From: Minisyncoccota bacterium
Lineage (GTDB): Bacteria > Patescibacteriota > Minisyncoccia > Moranbacterales > UBA2206
DNA length: 45,333 nt
Assembly (NCBI GenBank): GCA_031291955.1
Contig: JARLIA010000010.1
Span: 1-45,333 of the forward strand
Direction of reading: 5' to 3'
Part shown: positions 2,209-29,732 of the stretch, one piece after another
Position numbering within the stretch: position 1 is the first letter of the stretch
Layout: each line of letters opens with the position of its first letter
Notes under the pieces: generated by a model
Told to the model about the DNA's origin: nothing
Seen by the model: the letters and a program-made list of their open reading frames with translations, nothing else
Database searches by the model: none
Made by a program: the position numbers and the translations under genes

Positions 2209-3357
2209 ATGTCCATCTTAAAAAAAATCTTTTTCTTTTGTCTTTTTCTTTTTGCCCTCTCTCTTTTGCTTTGGGGTATTTACAACCTTTCCTTTAGCAA
2301 CACCAACACCGCCGGACAAAATTCCTCCGCCAATCCTGCCGCTCCCCAGAATGGAAAAAACGACTCCGCGAAAAATTCCGGCACAATAACCGCCCTTGTT
2401 TCCGAAGCGGTCTTGGCTCCAGCCTTGACGCCAAACGGCCAGAGCGTCAAATATTTTTCCAAGGATGGCAATGGACTGTATGAAATCAATTTAGACGGCA
2501 GCAATAAAAATACGCTTGACAGCCAAACTTTCCCGGGCCTGGCCAATGCCTTTTGGTCGCCCAACCAAACCACGGCAATTCTCCAATTTTCTCAAAACGG
2601 CCAAACGTCTTTTACTTATAAAGATTTTTCCACCCATCAAGAAACGCCGCTCAAAAATAATTTGGATCAAGTAGTCTGGCAGACTTCCGCTAACCGGATT
2701 TTTTATAAATACTATGATCCAAAAAGCCAAGAGCGAACGCTCAATGTTTCTGATCCAGATGGAAGTCATTGGACTAAACTGGCTGATTTGCCTTATCGCT
2801 ATGTTTCTATCGCCCAAATTCCAAAATCAAGCCTGGTGTCATTTTGGAACACCGGAGATGCTTTTTCCCAAACAATTTTCCAATCCGTTTCCATCTTGGG
2901 CGGAACGCCGGCAACAATCCTCGATAATGTTTACGGCGCGGATTATCTGTGGGACGCTGCCGGAGACCACGTCCTAGTCAGCCACACCGATTCACAAGGC
3001 GGCCACAAAATGCAGCTGGCAGTCATGAATTATAATGGAGGAGAATATCGCGACCTTGGAATTAGCACGCTTTCCTCCAAGTGCGTCTGGTCATCTGATG
3101 GAAAAACCGTCTATTACGCCTTGCCGGGCAATATTCCAGCCAGTGCCATTATGCCCAATGACTGGAACAGCAATCAATTCAACACGACAGACACTTTTTG
3201 GAAAGTCGATATTCAAACCGGCAAAACCACCCAGTTAGTCGACCCCAAAAAAATCCAGCAGAACTATGACGCTACAAATCTTTTTCTCAACCAAGATGAA
3301 AGCACGCTTTTCTTCATGAACCGCGTTGACGGCAAGCTGTATAAAATAGGTTTGTAA
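2209..3357 (+). CDS. Membrane-anchored TolB/WD40-like beta-propeller protein
   Basis: N-terminal TM, repeated GNGLYEINLDGSN.../WSPNQTTAIL.../WSSDGKTVYYALPG motifs. Confidence 0.55.
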   Translation: MSILKKIFFFCLFLFALSLLLWGIYNLSFSNTNTAGQNSSANPAAPQNGKNDSAKNSGTITALVSEAVLAPALTPNGQSVKYFSKDGNGLYEINLDGSNKNTLDSQTFPGLANAFWSPNQTTAILQFSQNGQTSFTYKDFSTHQETPLKNNLDQVVWQTSANRIFYKYYDPKSQERTLNVSDPDGSHWTKLADLPYRYVSIAQIPKSSLVSFWNTGDAFSQTIFQSVSILGGTPATILDNVYGADYLWDAAGDHVLVSHTDSQGGHKMQLAVMNYNGGEYRDLGISTLSSKCVWSSDGKTVYYALPGNIPASAIMPNDWNSNQFNTTDTFWKVDIQTGKTTQLVDPKKIQQNYDATNLFLNQDESTLFFMNRVDGKLYKIGL

Positions 3358-3361
3358 AAAA

Positions 3362-4576
3362 TTATCCCAGGACCAGAAAATTCAGCCAAAAAACGACCGC
3401 CAGGTCGTTTTTTAAAATGGTCGTATCAACAAGACCATGAAGAAGAAAATAAAGCACAATGCCAAAAGACAAAATGAATATTGAAGCATCTCCGGATGTG
3501 TTTTTTATTTTTTGAAAAATATTTTTGAAATAAAAATAAAGCACCAAAAAAAAACCAAGCAGTCCCAAGATTCCGCCCGACAGCCAAAACGCCAGATAAA
3601 CATTTTGCGGATGCGGAACCGCCCATTCGAGATACGGCGGAAAATATTTTTGGCTTTCCAGATAAAAAGGCTGGAAATTGCTCGGACCAATGCCAATTAA
3701 CCAATGATCCTCCAATATTTTCCCGGCTGCGCGCCAGATCATCTCCCGGGAGGCAATTGATGAACGTGAGCCGAGCGTGATCAACTCAATGAATTTGGGG
3801 TTATTAAACTGTGATAGAACCAGCATAATCACGATAGCCACAGTTAGGCTGATCTTTTTTAGAGAAATATTTTTTTGAATCAAAAATATCGCCAGCAGAG
3901 AGCTGGTCACCGACAGCCAGGCCGCATAGGAGTAGGTTTTATAAAAAGCAGCTAAAATAATTAGCAAAGTTATCCCTTCAAAAAACATCTTCCAGCTTGC
4001 CTTGGAGCTTTGAGTTTTGAGACAAAGACCGATTATAATTCCTGGCGCCAGATACATCGCCAGATAATTTGGTGAATTAAAAAAAGCCTCCAATCGGCCG
4101 TCATAAGTCATTCGGTCGGCCAAAAGATATCCCAGAGAAACAAGGGCGACGCCGAAAGAAGAAAGGTATATAGCTCGAAAAATATTGACCAATTTATCTT
4201 TGGAAATATACTTATAAATCACAAAAACCAGAAGCCAGGGGAAAACAAACCAGCTCTTAATTATCCCGAGACCCGCCATTGGATTAATATTTGCCAGCAT
4301 GGAAATCAAGAGCCCGATAAAAATCAGCCCGGCAGAAAGAATAATTTTTTTAGGATATGCCTCCGTAGAGACGAGGCATTGCCTCGTCTCTACGCGGCAA
4401 CATTTCACCAGCCACCAAATAAAAACCAGGGGAATTAAAAACTCCAAAAGATTGGTTGGAAAGCCAAAGATTTGGAATTTTAAAAGATAGACGGGGAGCG
4501 CCGCCACTGTAAAATAAATAAAATTTTCCAGGCTAAACAACTTCTTCATCTTTTTCGGGCAAATTATTGAGAGCAA
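3362..4576 (-). CDS. O-antigen ligase/Wzy-type polymerase-like membrane protein
   Basis: Multi-TM, GPSNFQPFYLESQKYFPPYLEWAVPHPQNVYLAFWLSGGILGLLGF motif. Confidence 0.7.
   Translation of the reverse strand: MLSIICPKKMKKLFSLENFIYFTVAALPVYLLKFQIFGFPTNLLEFLIPLVFIWWLVKCCRVETRQCLVSTEAYPKKIILSAGLIFIGLLISMLANINPMAGLGIIKSWFVFPWLLVFVIYKYISKDKLVNIFRAIYLSSFGVALVSLGYLLADRMTYDGRLEAFFNSPNYLAMYLAPGIIIGLCLKTQSSKASWKMFFEGITLLIILAAFYKTYSYAAWLSVTSSLLAIFLIQKNISLKKISLTVAIVIMLVLSQFNNPKFIELITLGSRSSIASREMIWRAAGKILEDHWLIGIGPSNFQPFYLESQKYFPPYLEWAVPHPQNVYLAFWLSGGILGLLGFFLVLYFYFKNIFQKIKNTSGDASIFILSFGIVLYFLLHGLVDTTILKNDLAVVFWLNFLVLG
4364..4394. repeat. Perfect palindrome CGTAGAGACGAGGCA-T-TGCCTCGTCTCTACG inside the CDS
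   Basis: 15-bp arms read directly; encodes RVETRQCLVSTEA in frame. Confidence 0.9.
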
Positions 4577-14052: not shown

Positions 14053-14814
14053 TCAAGCCGACCAATAATCATCCGCATTTTCCTTGCTAGAAGTTGTGCC
14101 GCGCCAAGCCAACTCAAAAAGAAAGCGCATATTTTTGGCAATCTCATTACTTTCTACAATCAGCCCTAAGGATTCCTGAAAACTCATAAAAGTCAATTTG
14201 TTGCCGTAAATATTCATCTCAATGGAAAAAGGAAATTCTTCCTTACTGACTAGTCGCGTCTCTTTTAGATCTTTTTGATCTGATTTTTTATACTCTTTTA
14301 TTTCTTCCGTATCCGGTCCGATCGCCCGGACGGTGATTTTAGCTTTGACCCTTTTGTTTTTATATTCGTCGGCAAAGTCCGCTCCCAGTTTGGCGATTAT
14401 ATTTTCTGTCACGAAGGCGACTAATTCACCCTCGTATTTCAAGGTGTCGCGGTAAACTTCTTTGATGCCTTCCGGTCCTTCAAAGTAGCGGATGACCGGT
14501 TTGGTGCCGGCGGTGTTGAGGAGTGATTTCAGCGCCGGCATCAACTCCTTCAGTTTTTCTTTCTTTTCGTCTAATACTTTTTCCAGATTGGATGGATCAG
14601 CCGCTAAAAATAATCTCTTCTTACCTTTTCGGGTTTGGGAAACCAAGTTCTTTTTCTCCAGTTCGAGCAACACATCATAGACAGTTGTTCTTAAAATGCC
14701 GGTCTTTTTGGCGAGAGTTATCACCGGGCTGGCTCCCAACTCTAAAAGCGCCAGGTAAATGCCAGCTTGTTTCTCATTGAGGCCGAACTGGGTCAATTGT
14801 TGGGATATATCCAT
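14053..14814 (-). CDS. TrmB-family transcriptional regulator
   Basis: MDISQQLTQFGLNEKQAGIYLALLELGASPVITLAKKTGILRTTVYDVLLELEKKNLVSQ wHTH; start chosen at 14814 by homology pattern. Confidence 0.8.
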   Translation of the reverse strand: MDISQQLTQFGLNEKQAGIYLALLELGASPVITLAKKTGILRTTVYDVLLELEKKNLVSQTRKGKKRLFLAADPSNLEKVLDEKKEKLKELMPALKSLLNTAGTKPVIRYFEGPEGIKEVYRDTLKYEGELVAFVTENIIAKLGADFADEYKNKRVKAKITVRAIGPDTEEIKEYKKSDQKDLKETRLVSKEEFPFSIEMNIYGNKLTFMSFQESLGLIVESNEIAKNMRFLFELAWRGTTSSKENADDYWSA

Positions 14815-14844
14815 AAAATGTCGAAATAATAAGTCAACATTTAC

Positions 14845-14931: not shown

Positions 14932-14960
14932 TTGACATTTAGTGGGTTAGGTGCTATAAT
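14932..14960 (+). promoter_or_regulatory. Consensus sigma70 promoter driving the hairpin-dense unit
   Basis: TTGACA (14932-14937), 17-nt spacer, TATAAT (14955-14960). Confidence 0.85.
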
Positions 14961-14965
14961 AACCC

Positions 14966-15345
14966 GTTACGATGAGACAACGAGAAGAGAGAGCAAGCGT
15001 AACCAACGCACCTTACATATAAATAGTGTCCCTACCGCCCAAAGGCGGAAAAGACCTATAAATGGCACTAGAAACAGAAAGCATACGAAAATCCTTTGTA
15101 GAGAAGAGAACCCGCCTTCGCCAAGGCTACGGCGGGCAAAGAAAGATAGCCAAAGGATCTGACACAATTCTGTTTCTCCTCCGGACGAGCCATCGCCGGA
15201 GTAGAAAGTGGTCCTTGTTCCGAAGTAATTCGGAACAGGAGCAGGCTTTCTAAAAGTCTAGGGAAGAGAGGCAAATATGTCAGTGAGCCATCAGCATTGA
15301 TTGGTGTAAAAACTCTCTCTTCTCTTCAATCAATATCGCTCACTG
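14966..15345 (+). ncRNA. Candidate structured RNA / structured 5' leader with kissing-loop complementarity
   Basis: Hand-paired helices: 14966-14971/14998-15003; 15029-15034/15259-15264; 15035-15039/15044-15048; 15070-15079/15168-15177; 15091-15098/15151-15158; 15111-15116/15131-15136; 15179-15184/15196-15201; 15203-15208/15246-15251; 15217-15224/15229-15236 with GTAA loop; 15281-15288/15338-15345; 15296-15303/15327-15334; loop-loop 14982-14993/15313-15324. Confidence 0.6.
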
Positions 15346-15500
15346 GCATTTTTGTGGACAGTTCCTTAAGAAAAAATAGCGATTGGCATTTTGAAAATAT
15401 GAAACAATGTTTTTGAAATGCCGATCGTTATCACAAGATCGGAACCCGGCGACACAGCCAACGCCGGGGGAAGCCAAAGAAGAAAGGAGGTGAAACTTCT

Positions 15501-15665
15501 ATGGCACAGACCATTAATCTTGGTCTTGATAACCCCGAACTGTATCGGGGTTGCGAGATCGAGAAGGTGGCCGGGAGAGCCAACCTCACCACTTCGGTGG
15601 TTTCGGCGATTGAAATCGTCGGCGAGAATATCGCCGCGATGGCAATATCGACCCGGAAGAGGTGA
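15501..15665 (+). CDS. Short SD-led ORF, possible N-terminal half of a Csx3-like protein
   Basis: aaaggaggtgaaacttctATG; MAQTINLGLDNPELYRGCEIEKVAGRANLTTSVVSAIEIVGENIAAMAISTRKR*. Confidence 0.5.
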   Translation: MAQTINLGLDNPELYRGCEIEKVAGRANLTTSVVSAIEIVGENIAAMAISTRKR

Positions 15666-15790
15666 CACTCACCGGTCCGATGGCCGTGTGGAGCTACCTC
15701 GTGGTGTTCCATGCCGTCGTGCATAAGACACGCAAAGTGTTTTATGACGATGGGCGTGAAAACCGCGTGCTGGTGGCCGCCCACGGCTAA
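15614..15790 (+). pseudogene. Csx3/Crn3-like C-terminal segment in the -1 frame relative to 15501-15665 (frameshifted, recoded, or translated by reinitiation)
   Basis: Open frame NRRREYRRDGNIDPEEVTLTGPMAVWSYLVVFHAVVHKTRKVFYDDGRENRVLVAAHG*; W-x6-H, YDDGR and VLVAAH resemble Csx3 W..H / YDPRL / VVV.SH positions. Confidence 0.5.
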
Positions 15791-15946
15791 AGGGATTGCC
15801 AAGCAATCCTGCATGCCGACTCTTTTGCTGTGAAGAGTCGGTGAGTTCAACCACTAAATTGGGGTCAACACCACACGACCCCTTCTTTTCTCAAACCTTA
15901 ATTTATTTAAGGTTTGAGATGAAGAAGTTTGTTCTTTGAAAAATTA

Positions 15947-16005
15947 TTCCAGCTGTTCCGCGCGAGAATGTAACAAAGTTATATTTTTACGCGGAACAGC
16001 TGGAA
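15947..16005 (+). repeat. 16-bp perfect hairpin TTCCAGCTGTTCCGCG/CGCGGAACAGCTGGAA
   Basis: Direct reading; 27-nt loop. Confidence 0.9.
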
Positions 16006-16094
16006 AACTTTCCTGATTCGCAGAAGTCGCCCCTGAATCGGAAAGGTTGGAAAAAATTTTGCGCCCAGGGCGAGGGCGTGAGAGGAGGTGCCCC

Positions 16095-16382
16095 ATGAGG
16101 CATCGAAGAAGAAGGTTACGTCGAGCGAGGGCTCAGCGAGAGTTCTTTTCCGCCACGGCATGGGCCGCGGCGGATGTTGAACTGAGCAGCTGTCCGGACG
16201 AATGTCCGGACAGCTGCGCCACCTGCCAAACAGGGCAGGTGGCAAATTGGTATAAATGTGCGGCTGACGGCGCTACGGAAGTAGCAAGCATTAGCCGCAG
16301 GTACTTTTCCGAATGGAGAAAAGCTCTCCATTCGGAAGGCTGGGGACGCGAGGTCGAGCGGCATATCCGCTCGCGTCGCTAA
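16095..16382 (+). CDS. Small Arg/Cys-rich protein of unknown function, encoded largely by hairpins
   Basis: SD gaggaggtg 5 nt before ATG; MRHRRRRLRRARAQREFFSATAWAAADVELSSCPDECPDSCATCQTGQVANWYKCAADG...HIRSRR*. Confidence 0.45.
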   Translation: MRHRRRRLRRARAQREFFSATAWAAADVELSSCPDECPDSCATCQTGQVANWYKCAADGATEVASISRRYFSEWRKALHSEGWGREVERHIRSRR

Positions 16383-16388
16383 CCAGCA

Positions 16389-16427
16389 CAAGGAGATGTC
16401 GCCGCTCCTTGAAAAACAATCGGCGAC
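16389..16427 (+). ncRNA. H-type pseudoknot
   Basis: S1 CAAGGAG(16389-16395)/CTCCTTG(16405-16411); S2 GTCGCCG(16398-16404)/CGGCGAC(16421-16427); A-rich loop 3 aaaaacaat. Confidence 0.7.
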
Positions 16428-16438
16428 AAAACCACTTG

Positions 16439-16470
16439 GGCGGGATTATCACATCTCGCCTTTTTTATTT
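16439..16470 (+). terminator. Intrinsic terminator
   Basis: GGCGGGAT-tatcac-ATCTCGCC followed by TTTTTTATTTT. Confidence 0.85.
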
Positions 16471-25748: not shown

Positions 25749-26249
25749 TTATTTTAGATTATTCATTTTCCGGCTGTTGAGATGGCAGAGCGCGATCGCA
25801 ATCGCATCAGCCGTGTCGTCGGGGCGCGGAAGTTCGGCCAGGTTCATGATGCTTTTGGTCATGAGCTGGATTTGTTTTTTTTCCGCCCGCCCGTAGCCAG
25901 TGAGCGCTTGTTTCACCTGGAGGGGTGTGTAACTGGCAATCCTAACATTATTTTGCCGGAGTGTCAAGAGGACTGCTCCGCGGGACTGGGCGACGCTGAT
26001 GACCGTTTTTTGGTTCTTGAAAAAGAAAAGTTCCTCAATGGCAGCTTCGGCCGGCCGGTATTTTTTGATGATTTCAACAAGATCATTGCATATTTCACAA
26101 AGCCGGTTTTCGGGGCTATTCCCCTTGTCTGTGCTGATGTGGCCGTAAGCTACCGCCTTGGTCTGTCCACTGTTTTCTTCGACTATGGCCCAGCCGGTGG
26201 TGGCGGTTCCCGGGTCAATTCCAAGCACGCGCAAATTATAAGTTGTCAT
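25749..26249 (-). CDS. ruvC: Holliday junction resolvase RuvC
   Basis: RVLGIDPGTATTGWAIVE, AAIEELFFFKNQKTVISVAQSRGAVLL, QVKQALTGYGRAEKKQIQ, DDTADAIAIALCH; start taken at MTTYNLRV. Confidence 0.95.
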   Translation of the reverse strand: MTTYNLRVLGIDPGTATTGWAIVEENSGQTKAVAYGHISTDKGNSPENRLCEICNDLVEIIKKYRPAEAAIEELFFFKNQKTVISVAQSRGAVLLTLRQNNVRIASYTPLQVKQALTGYGRAEKKQIQLMTKSIMNLAELPRPDDTADAIAIALCHLNSRKMNNLK

Positions 26250-26949
26250 ATATTTCGTCAACGTCATCCTGCTCATCGAGCGCTTCCAAAAGTTTTTCGT
26301 AGTCCAATCGCGTTTCTTCGTCGATAGCGACGGTGCTCTTGGGCAGATAAGTGAGGCCGGCTTCCAAAATTTTAAGCCCGCTTTTTTCGAGAGTTTCCTG
26401 GACTTTTTGCAGCTCATGCGGTTCCGTGAAAACGATAAAATTATTTTCTTCGGATTTTATGTCTTTCGCTCCAGCTTCAATCGCAACCATTTCCAGTTCT
26501 TCCGTATTTTTATTTTCCGCATCGAGAATTATACTGCCGGCTTGCTCAAAATTCCACATTGCGCTCCCGGCTTCGCCGAATTTGCCGCCGTTTTTAGTCA
26601 GAATCGTTTTGATTTCGCCGAGCGTCCGATTTTTGTTGTCGGTGGTAGTTTTTATTAGCAGCATGATGCCGCCCGGCCCCATGGCTTCGTAGGTGATTTC
26701 CACAATTTCCGCGCCTTTCAGCTCACCCGTGCCGCGTTTCACTGCCCGGTCGATGTTGTCTTTGGGCATATTGAACTCCCGGGCCTTGTCGATAGCCATT
26801 CGGAGTTTGAAATTGGTGTCCGGGTTGCCGCCGCCGTCTCTCGCGGCGATGGTAATGGGTTTCGCCAGCCGCGTAAAAATTTTGGCGCGTTTGGCGTCAT
26901 TGACTCCTTTCCGTTGTTTAATTCCGGCCCAATGGGAATGTCCTGACAT
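26236..26949 (-). CDS. YebC/PmpR family regulator
   Basis: MSGHSHWAGIKQRKGVNDAKRAKIFTRLAKPITIAARDGGGNPDTNFKLRMAIDKAREFNMPKDNIDRAVKRG. Confidence 0.97.
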   Translation of the reverse strand: MSGHSHWAGIKQRKGVNDAKRAKIFTRLAKPITIAARDGGGNPDTNFKLRMAIDKAREFNMPKDNIDRAVKRGTGELKGAEIVEITYEAMGPGGIMLLIKTTTDNKNRTLGEIKTILTKNGGKFGEAGSAMWNFEQAGSIILDAENKNTEELEMVAIEAGAKDIKSEENNFIVFTEPHELQKVQETLEKSGLKILEAGLTYLPKSTVAIDEETRLDYEKLLEALDEQDDVDEIYDNL

Positions 26950-26952
26950 TTT

Positions 26953-27009
26953 TCACGTAACACGTAGCATGAAACAAATGTTTCGTGCTTCGTGTTGTAT
27001 GTTACGTGA
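26953..27009. repeat. Imperfect intergenic inverted repeat (cacgtaaca...catgaaac-aaat-gtttcgtg...tgttacgtg)
   Basis: Direct reading of both arms. Confidence 0.7.
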
Positions 27010-27067
27010 TTCAAGTTTAGCATTTTGAATGGATAAATTCAAGGGAAAATCAAATTTTATCTTCAAC

Positions 27068-27091
27068 AGGGGTCGCATATATGCGACCCCT
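27068..27091. repeat. REP-like palindrome AGGGGTCGCATATATGCGACCCCT followed by ACGG
   Basis: 24-bp perfect palindrome next to the transposase 3' end. Confidence 0.9.
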
Positions 27092-27109
27092 ACGGAAATG
27101 ACGATTGAA

Positions 27110-27634
27110 TTACGTAAAGATATTTTCCGAATTATTCCGGTCGCGGTTCCAGTTGGCAGGATTGTTTCTGATATATTCCCGGATGCGGTTCAGTTCGGCG
27201 TCGTTTCGGACAATATGGTCAAAATAATTTTGTTGCCAGCAAAAATAATAATTATTTTCATTGCACCATTTAGTGACGCCAATTTTAAATCCGCGGACGG
27301 CCGAGGACAATGAACGCGCCCACAATGTTTGCCAAGGTAAATCCCGTAGGGGGCAATAATTATTGCCCCCTACGGGTTCAGGGTTGATAATTTCGATAAT
27401 TCCATGGATATGATTGGGCATAATGACAAATTCGTCTAATGCAATATGTGGAAAATGGTTAGGTATTTCTAGCCAGCATCTTTGCGCGATTATTCCGATG
27501 TTGGAGGAATTTATTTTTTGGTCTGCAATGTCTCCGAAAAAATATTCCCGGTCTTTCGTACAAATCGTCACGAAATACATTCCGTTTTGGGAATAATCGT
27601 AATTTCTTAATCGGTTGGGCTTGCGATTTTTCAT
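27110..27634 (-). mobile_element. REP-associated tyrosine transposase (RAYT / Y1 TnpA_REP)
   Basis: RKPNRLRNYDYSQNGMYFVTICTKDREYFFGDI, ALDEFVIMPNHIHGIIEI (HxH), QQNYFDHIVRNDAELNRIREYIRNNPANW. Confidence 0.95.
27343..27376. repeat. 34-bp perfect palindrome CCCGTAGGGGGCAATAATTATTGCCCCCTACGGG inside the RAYT gene
   Basis: Direct reading; encodes EPVGGNNYCPLR in frame. Confidence 0.95.
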
Positions 27635-27648
27635 TGCGTTTACGCCGC

Positions 27649-27668
27649 GGGGCAAAAATTTTTGCCCC
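27649..27668. repeat. REP-like palindrome GGGGCAAAAATTTTTGCCCC followed by CTACGC
   Basis: 20-bp perfect palindrome at the transposase 5' end. Confidence 0.9.
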
Positions 27669-29732
27669 CTACGCAGCGTTGAGAAGATGATTTAAGGCGG
27701 AATTTATTTCCATCCAAAGTTCATCCAGCCAGCTGACCAGCCAATGTTTTTCTGGTTGGGAAATATCGCGAATAGTTGCCATGCCGGCGACGCGAGGAGA
27801 GGCGGCGTTCAAATTGAATTTTACGGCGAGATTGTAATTTACAAGATCGTTTCTGGTTGCTAGTTTCTTTTTCTCATCCGGCGCGGCGGAATATTTTCCG
27901 AGGGCGGCTTGGATTTCGGTTATCGAGGTGTTTAATTTTTGTTCTGACGTAGCGGGTGCGCGGGCAACGACCTCGGAGGTCTGCTTCTGCAGACCTCCGA
28001 GGTCTGTGGTTTTTTGCGGGGTGATCCAAACCCAACTGTCTTTATTTTTTTGATAAAGCTCGTCTTCGGCAATCGTTTTTTTGCCGTGGTCGTAGGTTAT
28101 TTCCTGGATCGCTTTGCCGTCCGGGCTTCGAAGCTTGATCTTATCTTTGGTGTTGGCAAGCGTGAAAGCGCAGATGTCGCGCGTGAGCTTTTCGGTTTGG
28201 CCGGGCTTAATTTTGAAATCCGTGCGAATGGGATGGTTGTAAAAAATTTCCCAGCCGGTGGCGATCGACCAGCCTTTGAGATTAATTTTCTTTTTGGAAT
28301 TATTTTCAATCTCGATCCATTCGTTGTCGGTGTCAGAACCCTTCGGGTTAGGAGAAAAACTGACGATCCGAATTTTTGGCGCTTTGTACTTTTCAACGTC
28401 AACTTCAAAATCCAGCGTTTCGTCAACTTTGCCGTCGTGAACACGCAGACTCGCGGCGTACGTTCCGGTTTTGGCGTATTTATGTTTTGTGTCTTGTAAA
28501 TAACTTTTATGACTGTCGCCGAAATCCCAAGTAAATTTCGTATTTTTATTTTGGTCTTCGACGTCAACGGAAAAATAGGCATACATATCTTTGTAAACCG
28601 GATCATCTTTTTGGATTTTTATTTTCGGCACTTTGTCGAACTGGTTTTCCGCGCCGGGCGTTGGTTGTGAGGTCCAGCGCCAAGCGGAGCCGTCAAAAGC
28701 GTAAGACTGCTGTGCTTTAGTGGAAGAGTAAGTCCGGCTGTCGACGAGGGTATTGTCTTTGTCGGATAAATAAACCGTGTCGCCCTTAGAATCATTGTTT
28801 AAAGAAAAAGTTCCGTAAAAAACAGTAAATATTCCTTTGGTCTCCTGGTCACCTATTTTTTTACAGCTGCCTTTGTTTCCCTTGGCATATTCAACCTGAT
28901 CTTTTAGGCACCATGTGGAAAAATCAATGCTATCGTCGCTGGTATTTGTTATTTCTACAAATTCCTTTTCGCCGATGCCCGTGTTGGGCGCTGGATAGAT
29001 CTCGTTGATTTTTACTTGGCCGGCGTATTTTGATTCTTTGTCTTGGTTGCCATTGTTATTATTATCATTATCTCCATTATTATTATCACCAGAGCCGCTA
29101 TCGCAGTTTTCGTCTTTCAAATTTTCTTTTCCCGGCGTGCCGCCCGGGTCGCAACTTACTTGCCAGTTGTTGCCGTTTAAAGCGGTCCTTTCCAAGCTCT
29201 TTTTGCTGTCTGGATTTTGGACCACGTGGTCGGAGAAATAATCATTGCTTCCCCAGCCAAGATAATCAATGACATCCTCTTTTTTATTTTTCGAGGTACT
29301 GATATAAACAGCGCCATCGGCCACCAGCGAGGCCGAATAGGTCACGTCCGGGTCAGTTTTGTTATCACTGTCGGACGCATAATCTTTTGAAGCGATGAGA
29401 TAATAACTTTTCGCGCCGATAGTCCCGTTTATAAAATTCAGGTCTTTGGCGCTGTCTGAATTTTTCGAGTTTACGATGTGGAGCGCGAGTGGCATTTTTT
29501 CCAGATCGATTTCTGATTCGGACGGATTATACAGTTCGATAAATTCTTCCGAGGCGGAGTTGCCGCCGACCAGAACCTCGGAAATTATCAGGCTATCAGG
29601 CGCATCATCGGCTGAAGATTTATGACAGGTGATAAAACCCGCCACCAAAAAAAATAGCAGCAACGCGACTGATTGCAGAATGAAAAAAGTCTTTTTGTTT
29701 TCGCCACTTCGGGACGGAAGCGAAATTTTCAC
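27669..29732 (-). CDS. Secreted protein with multiple lamin-tail (LTD) domains and a PKD domain
   Basis: LIISEVLVGGNSASEEFIELYNPSESEIDL; VKINEIYPAPNTGIGEKEFVEITNTSDDSIDFSTWCL; FTWDFGDSHKSYLQDTKHKYAKTGTY; NEWIEIENNSKKKINLKGWSI. Confidence 0.88.
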   Translation of the reverse strand: MKISLPSRSGENKKTFFILQSVALLLFFLVAGFITCHKSSADDAPDSLIISEVLVGGNSASEEFIELYNPSESEIDLEKMPLALHIVNSKNSDSAKDLNFINGTIGAKSYYLIASKDYASDSDNKTDPDVTYSASLVADGAVYISTSKNKKEDVIDYLGWGSNDYFSDHVVQNPDSKKSLERTALNGNNWQVSCDPGGTPGKENLKDENCDSGSGDNNNGDNDNNNNGNQDKESKYAGQVKINEIYPAPNTGIGEKEFVEITNTSDDSIDFSTWCLKDQVEYAKGNKGSCKKIGDQETKGIFTVFYGTFSLNNDSKGDTVYLSDKDNTLVDSRTYSSTKAQQSYAFDGSAWRWTSQPTPGAENQFDKVPKIKIQKDDPVYKDMYAYFSVDVEDQNKNTKFTWDFGDSHKSYLQDTKHKYAKTGTYAASLRVHDGKVDETLDFEVDVEKYKAPKIRIVSFSPNPKGSDTDNEWIEIENNSKKKINLKGWSIATGWEIFYNHPIRTDFKIKPGQTEKLTRDICAFTLANTKDKIKLRSPDGKAIQEITYDHGKKTIAEDELYQKNKDSWVWITPQKTTDLGGLQKQTSEVVARAPATSEQKLNTSITEIQAALGKYSAAPDEKKKLATRNDLVNYNLAVKFNLNAASPRVAGMATIRDISQPEKHWLVSWLDELWMEINSALNHLLNAA
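27969..28004. repeat. Perfect hairpin GACCTCGGAGGTCTGC-ttct-GCAGACCTCCGAGGTC inside the LTD gene
   Basis: 16-bp arms, encodes TDLGGLQKQTSEV in frame. Confidence 0.95.

Follow-up and report, generated by a model that had tools for sequence, protein, structure and literature searches.

A family of Moranbacteria operons with a conserved leader RNA, boxA-like elements and hairpin-saturated small genes

On balance, positions 14932-16470 of the stretch analysed here (the window, 45,333 nucleotides) are regarded as one operon of a family in the order of Candidatus Moranbacteria, transcribed as an antiterminated, structure-armoured mRNA. The architecture alone is held with high confidence, and the two functions, processive antitermination and an RNase-resistant message, are put forward jointly and tentatively. 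A sequence-only reading of the locus had proposed an undescribed structured RNA or RNA/mini-protein system. This proposal was supported in part, by homologues, covarying helices and the lack of an Rfam family, and was revised as follows: the supposed single unit consists of two joined parts, a conserved leader RNA (14966-15358) and boxA-preceded small protein genes with hairpin-saturated coding sequences, and the locus is a member of a family found in one CPR order, usually beside a divergent TrmB-like regulator.

Selection for local hairpins along the whole length of coding sequence has been described for some RNA viruses. To our knowledge, no bacterial operon or coding sequence is known to be selected in this way, and a literature search (subscription papers aside) returned no description of such operons. 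Here the feature occurs in a defined operon type equipped with a dedicated leader RNA, which makes the purpose of a fully structured mRNA testable; Moranbacteria also gain a new structured RNA family and a link to Csx3/SAVED-type genes.

Organisation of the unit

The features of the unit are listed in Table 1. The perfect promoter and the intrinsic terminator (given earlier as 16439-16470) that had been read from the letters were both borne out by consensus, and the promoter occupies the same position in the homologous loci. Sixteen non-overlapping perfect inverted repeats (arms ≥7, loop ≤30) were counted in 14932-16470, in agreement with the claim of more than fifteen stem-loops, and nearly all the examples given with that claim are among them. 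With arms ≥8, the density was 12 per 1539 bases at the unit and 0-4 almost everywhere else on the contig, which upholds the claimed excess over the surroundings; the sole other peak (6, at ~26.5-27.5 kb) has a different cause. This second peak (26150-27700) contains a small gene (27110-27655, minus strand) that resembles a REP-associated transposase; palindromes of the GGGGGCAATAATTATTGCCCCC type lie within and around it. A search for tRNA and tmRNA found none. The host genome is ~1.01 Mb.

Table 1. Features of the unit and of the adjoining regulator gene (positions in the window).
Feature	Position	Strand	Basis
TrmB-like HTH regulator gene, divergent from the unit	14053-14817	-	Pfam TrmB, 2e-13
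Sigma-70 type promoter TTGACA-17-TATAAT, extended -10 TG	14932-14960	+	12/12 consensus matches
Leader RNA, ~390 nt, new structured RNA family	14966-15358	+	covariance models R1 and R2; covariation; no Rfam match
5' stem at or near +1, GTTACG (14966-14971) / CGTAAC (14998-15003)	14966-15003	+	alignment A1
Pseudoknot-like pairing AUGGC (15062-15066) / GCCAU (15189-15193)	15062-15193	+	100% of cells paired
Best-conserved module TAGAAAG-TGGTC-(hairpin)-GCAGG-CTTTCTA	15202-15252	+	covariation
Terminator-like hairpin GTCAGTGAGC/GCTCACTGGC, then ATTTTTGTGG	15279-15353	+	covariation
Degenerate boxA-like element before cassette 1, weak	15361-15379	+	by eye against GTTCTTTGAAAATTGAATA
Long hairpin, ~25 pairs, several G.U	15375-15432	+	MFE structure; window z -9.5
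Csx3/Crn3-like small gene behind AGGAGG site	15501-15790	+	tblastn against the intact G053 homologue
boxA-like GTTCTTTGAAAAATT before cassette 2	15931-15945	+	0 mismatches to GTTCTTTGAAAA
16-bp perfect stem directly 3' of boxA	15947-16005	+	inverted-repeat listing
95-aa Arg-rich ORF behind AGGAGG site, no known family	16095-16382	+	ORF and family searches
H-type pseudoknot after stop codon, AAGGAG/CTCCTT and GTCGCCG/CGGCGAC, then AACCAC	16390-16435	+	pattern search
Intrinsic terminator	16438-16467	+	stem-loop 16438-16461, then TTTTTATTTT

Folding energies were far below those of shuffled controls, a comparison that the sequence-only reading had proposed: z was -6.3 for the leader and -17.4 for 15363-16162. 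Over 300-base windows of the plus strand the unit had a mean z of -9.1; the 16S rRNA of the organism gave -1.9, and ordinary genes from the window lay at ~0. As in GORS-like RNA, the coding region was more stable than sequence-order-shuffled controls throughout.

The HTH domain of the regulator exceeded the TrmB cut-off (50.4 vs 25.6 bits), and the nearest homologues of this gene include those adjoining the leader in G025 and G055. TrmB-like genes lie upstream in most of the other loci; the family was found in 100 of the 132 genomes of the order, with up to 16 matches per genome, and its members often adjoin operons starting GTTA[AC]GATGA. Many paralogues (e.g. at loci L121, L126 and L138) are divergent from small-ORF operons with this start. 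Operons of the L121/L126/L138 type have repeated hairpins between the ORFs, and their coding sequences are unsaturated.

The leader RNA

Leader homologues were sought in 56 relatives by DNA search and then with covariance models built in this analysis, the E-values of which are rough. The leader was found at high score in seven genomes: the organism's own, G019, G022, G025, G026, G031 (two copies) and G055 (two copies), with additional partial matches (e.g. in G033). Carriers named Candidatus Moranbacteria in GTDB are represented by contigs MFSF01000007, PCRW01000040, JAPLXG010000008 and DAIEIZ010000077, and JAJYDG010000001 is a further leader-carrying contig. One assembly was used per species, and because many loci are relatives the counts are not fully independent.

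Loci of family f7 (G053, G059, G094, G102 and G103) carry a leader that has diverged but keeps the start motif and the layout, in front of similar arrays. Model R2 was also run on samples of 388 (class) and 384 (phylum) and detected no new genome; since the diverged f7 leader was likewise missed by R2, this model underestimates the spread. The range of the leader is wider than R2 shows, but in the tests made it does not reach beyond the order.

The structure of the leader RNA is conserved. After long insertions of some sequences had been trimmed, alignment A2 (six sequences) had 97.1% of cells paired and changes on both sides in 20 of 35 pairs, and alignment A3 (nine sequences) had 95.4% of cells paired and such changes in 22 of 39 pairs. 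The covariation score was reached by none of 500 shuffles in either alignment (a result that holds for the main measures), and slid structures paired only 25-51% of cells. The homologue comparison that had been suggested for the locus thus yielded covarying helices; in Rfam, for which a search had likewise been suggested, nothing reached the gathering score, and the leader and its homologues had no plausible match to E 5. The leader was also considered as a peptide gene starting at ATG 15062, which was rejected: the frame is not conserved and the codon is ACG in the second G055 copy (G055b).

In alignment A1, GTTACG/CGTAAC of the 5' stem is matched by GTTAAG/CTTAAC, and a motif survey found the start motif GTTA[AC]GATGA again in further TrmB-linked operons. 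Next 3' is the pairing GAAACAG/CTGTTTC around a conserved GCATACnAAA stretch. The GCCAU strand of the pseudoknot-like pairing sits in the loop of helix CTCCGG/CCGGAG (15179-15201), and one pair of this pairing has changed on both sides. The best-conserved module has 21 pairs, 14 with both-side changes, and 97.4% of cells paired; its core (AAGTGGTY-hairpin-CAGGCTT) is nearly invariant and its closing TAGAAAG/CTTTCTA becomes TAATAAG/CTTATTA in G055. At the 3' end of the leader, GCCAGTGAG pairs with CTCACTGGC, followed by ATTTTTGTGG; all cells of the terminator-like hairpin are paired, four of its ten pairs show double changes, and its loop holds CTCTCTTCTC (15315-15324), which is complementary to copies of GAAGAGAG near 14982 and 15263.

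Additional elements were seen in and around the leader. The variable loop at 15107-15148 holds a dispersed short palindromic repeat (GCCTTCGCCAAGGCTACGGCGGGC) that recurs at numerous sites in related genomes. In several genomes, an element with CCAGCACTAACTTTGGACT at one end and its reverse complement at the other is inserted at or near the leader 3' end (L028 ~2795-3090; L047 245-548 and 728-860; L027 3282-3400); it flanks an apparent GIY-YIG gene in two places, and the gene is absent in others. An apparent HepT/MNT-type toxin-antitoxin pair, reversed, lies between the leader and the first array gene at L026 (~2650-3330) and L048 (~1900-2620).

The boxA-like and 3' elements

The boxA-like elements come after the leader or ahead of cassettes and resemble the boxA of the organism's own 16S leader (AACTTTGACAAGTGAATAG), although the motif is short and one copy in the window is degenerate; this copy, before cassette 1, was not found by a two-mismatch scan. 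The exact GTTCTTTGAAAA is present in the organism's own unit (15931) and in G022, and other loci have one or two mismatches to it.

A search for the pattern GGAG-n-S2-CTCC-n-S2' located an H-type pseudoknot just 3' of stop codons in the organism's own genome, G025, G031 (three copies) and G055b, and a further copy was recognised by eye in G055a. The S2 sequences differ (GCCGG, GTCGCCG, TCGCG), and AACCAC usually follows. A different conserved structured 3' element of ~110 nt (AAATCCTAG...TAGGATGGGC) was seen after the last ORF at L047 (2605-2715) and L049 (reverse strand, ~2240-2130).

The downstream genes and their hairpins

The SD-led ORFs behind the leader vary among loci and mostly have no known family. 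Where homologous pairs could be tested, these genes are real proteins: dN/dS for two pairs was 0.10/0.49 (0.21) and 0.23/1.03 (0.22), which indicates protein-level constraint on those ORFs. The earlier statement that the unit has no long ORF, with short SD-led ORFs, is literally correct, but a long ORF is lacking only because the Csx3-like gene is frameshifted, and one SD-led ORF extends to 95 codons. Several of the hairpins listed in that reading sit within the coding regions of the Csx3-like gene or the 95-aa ORF.

Selection has favoured sense-RNA hairpins in the coding sequences and has left the surroundings of the start codon comparatively open. In 19 array ORFs, 760 bases lay in perfect-hairpin arms, compared with 134 under synonymous-codon permutation (z 22), and for 16 of the 19 at most 4 of 200 permutations were as high. 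The 95-aa ORF holds four long perfect hairpins (45 hairpin bases observed, 7.2 expected). The control set of 13 ordinary genes of the window had 208 hairpin bases vs 175. Most ORFs of loci that were added after the permutation test behaved in the same way (G102, 58 vs 14 and 10 vs 1.2; G103, 33 vs 5.7; G059, 21 vs 6.2), and some small ORFs had no hairpins.

DNA palindromes are blind to the difference between G.T and A.C interruptions, whereas sense-strand RNA structure tolerates only G.U. Helices with a single mismatch had 45 G.U and 13 A.C, against the equal numbers predicted by block shuffles; other settings of the test gave 20:9 and 53:19, and coding sequence alone gave 27:4. Interruption by G.U rather than A.C points to selection on the sense RNA. 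Folding z was also lower for the sense than for the antisense strand (own unit, -9.1/-7.1; G094, -6.6/-5.0; G031b, -6.6/-4.5), and this strand asymmetry disfavours DNA-level palindromes as the explanation. Predicted unpairedness over 30 starts was 0.50 at the start codon and ~0.30 in the inner coding sequence, which argues for a message built for translation.

Hairpin saturation is a property of the host operon and not of the gene. The coding sequence of a phage (IMG/VR) homologue of the Csx3-like gene had no hairpin bases, and TrmB-linked operons of the same order that do not have the long leader and boxA showed only slight enrichment (244 hairpin bases vs 146) and no G.U excess; saturation thus tracks the long leader and boxA.

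A frameshift interrupts the Csx3-like gene near 15650 (one frame over 15501-15665, the -1 frame from there to 15790), so the organism's own copy may be decaying or misassembled. The two pieces matched the G053 homologue by tblastn at 15513-15653 (E 1.4e-11) and 15653-15787 (E 3.6e-15). A programmed -1 frameshift at ~15650 was considered and rejected: the overlap has no canonical slippery heptamer, and an indel of ~10 bases, measured against the homologue, is the better fit. The intact G053 protein matched PADLOC Csx3 at 1.4e-6; the organism's own sequence scored below the curated cut-offs (Pfam, 12.4 vs 21 bits; NCBIfam, 13.9 vs 55.4 bits) and is therefore named Csx3-like only. In G053, a SAVED protein adjoins the Csx3-like gene (Pfam 6.9e-6, PADLOC 4.9e-16). 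Two f7 loci (L025 and L117) show an array with a radical-SAM-like gene, a TM-SAVED protein and an intact Csx3-like protein, which is possibly a nucleotide-signalling module outside a cas locus. An IMG/VR contig (L171, 2660-2956) encodes a Csx3-like protein 54% identical to that of G053, possibly a viral counter-defence gene.

Proposed explanation and alternatives

The proposed course of events is as follows: the TrmB-like regulator, read in the opposite direction, probably controls the operon promoter; polymerase would first transcribe the ~390-nt folded leader, ending in the terminator-like hairpin, and would next cross rRNA-type boxA elements, behind each of which come a long stem and a small SD-led gene, with the pseudoknot lying 3' of the last gene and ahead of the terminator. 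By analogy with the put and EAR RNAs and with rrn boxA, the leader and boxA may form a processive antitermination module; with so many hairpins in the transcript, polymerase would have to be terminator-resistant. The hairpins could armour the message against single-strand RNA nucleases or decay, and such a message might stay translatable through dormancy or through the destruction of most mRNA. In some arrays, the presence of Csx3-like and SAVED genes would be consistent with a function connected to nucleotide-signalled RNases. To judge by the phage homologue, which has no hairpins, genes entering an array would acquire them. A class of 'armoured' chromosomal operons, in which leader and boxA make polymerase terminator-proof, recruited genes evolve hairpin-chain coding sequences and messages survive RNA destruction or dormancy, is offered as a conjecture.

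A serious rival for the leader end, compatible with the rest of this explanation and with a real, if minority, chance of being right, is an attenuator or riboswitch, in which CTCTCTTCTC would either pair with the distal GAAGAGAG at ~14982 or stay in the loop of the 15279-15347 hairpin and so switch the downstream genes. The hairpin and ATTTTTGTGG are nearly invariant, the purine repeat copies and the one pyrimidine strand are present in loci of families f1 and f11, and the alternative long-range pairing is used by the MFE fold; against this, the T run is only five long and is followed by GTG, and the coding hairpins are left over by a model that accounts for the leader only. The hairpins themselves might be a mutational by-product, with template switching perfecting quasi-palindromes and no selection on RNA. 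Such a contribution is plausible for some very long perfect hairpins, as some arms, unrelated to one another in sequence, pair perfectly over 10-16 bp (also at L117 near 3650-3740). As a general account it is already disfavoured and quite improbable, given the excess of G.U over A.C, the greater stability of the sense strand, the sparing of the start-codon region, the leader helices that stay paired through double changes, and the confinement of saturation to units with long leader and boxA and its absence from the phage homologue and sister operons.

A long structural noncoding RNA like ROOL or GOLLD, with incidental ORFs, is an unlikely reading of the unit: the folding is extreme (z stronger than for 16S rRNA), boxA is typical of untranslated structured transcripts and one of the unit's own ORFs is frameshifted, but the dN/dS of ~0.2 in homologous array ORFs, the SD sites, the SAVED and Csx3 homologies and the open start regions all speak against it. 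There is also little chance that the arrays are what is left of a mobile or viral element, with RNA folded for packaging or persistence like the genome-scale ordered structure of RNA viruses. Patchy presence, variable gene content, hairpins throughout the coding RNA and insertions inside arrays would agree with such an origin; however, phage and plasmid collections searched with the unit gave no match, no replicase or capsid family was seen among the array proteins, and the chromosomal neighbourhood TrmB-array-methyltransferase is common to the organism's own locus and G055. A pattern search had given 19 IMG/VR matches, all of which were rejected by the covariance model.

Comparison with known systems

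As in the GORS-like RNA of viruses, folding is spread over the coding sequence and is not confined to a single element; unlike it, the unit is a chromosomal bacterial operon with promoter and terminator and no replicase. The gene at 15501-15790, like its intact homologues, is linked to Csx3/Crn3 ring nucleases by a PADLOC Csx3 score, and the G053 homologue adjoins a SAVED protein; it differs in falling below the Pfam and NCBIfam cut-offs, in lying in an array with no visible cas genes and in being frameshifted in its own genome.

Processive antitermination leader RNAs include the put RNA of HK022, the EAR RNA of Bacillus and the LoaP-bound hairpins. Like these, the leader is a structured RNA opening an operon with many potential terminators; it differs in its length of ~390 nt with a pseudoknot, in phylum and in having only a candidate activity, and as it has no Rfam match only the function may be shared. 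LoaP is treated in PMC12691694. With ROOL, GOLLD and OLE (PMC12286853) the unit shares the character of a large bacterial RNA with many helices and no known partner, but it is shorter, matches no Rfam family and has translated genes behind the RNA. The regulator resembles TrmB family regulators (PMC4158304) in its HTH domain, which matches Pfam TrmB, and is unlike them in its large paralogous expansion in the order, beside small-ORF operons. BoxA occurs in rrn operons (PMC4807359), where it binds NusB-S10 and the complex stays on polymerase (PMC12691694). Both there and here, a GTTCTTTGAAAATTGAATA-type element lies in the early part of a transcript with strong folding; here, in contrast, the element is repeated, ahead of protein-coding cassettes and behind a separate leader RNA.
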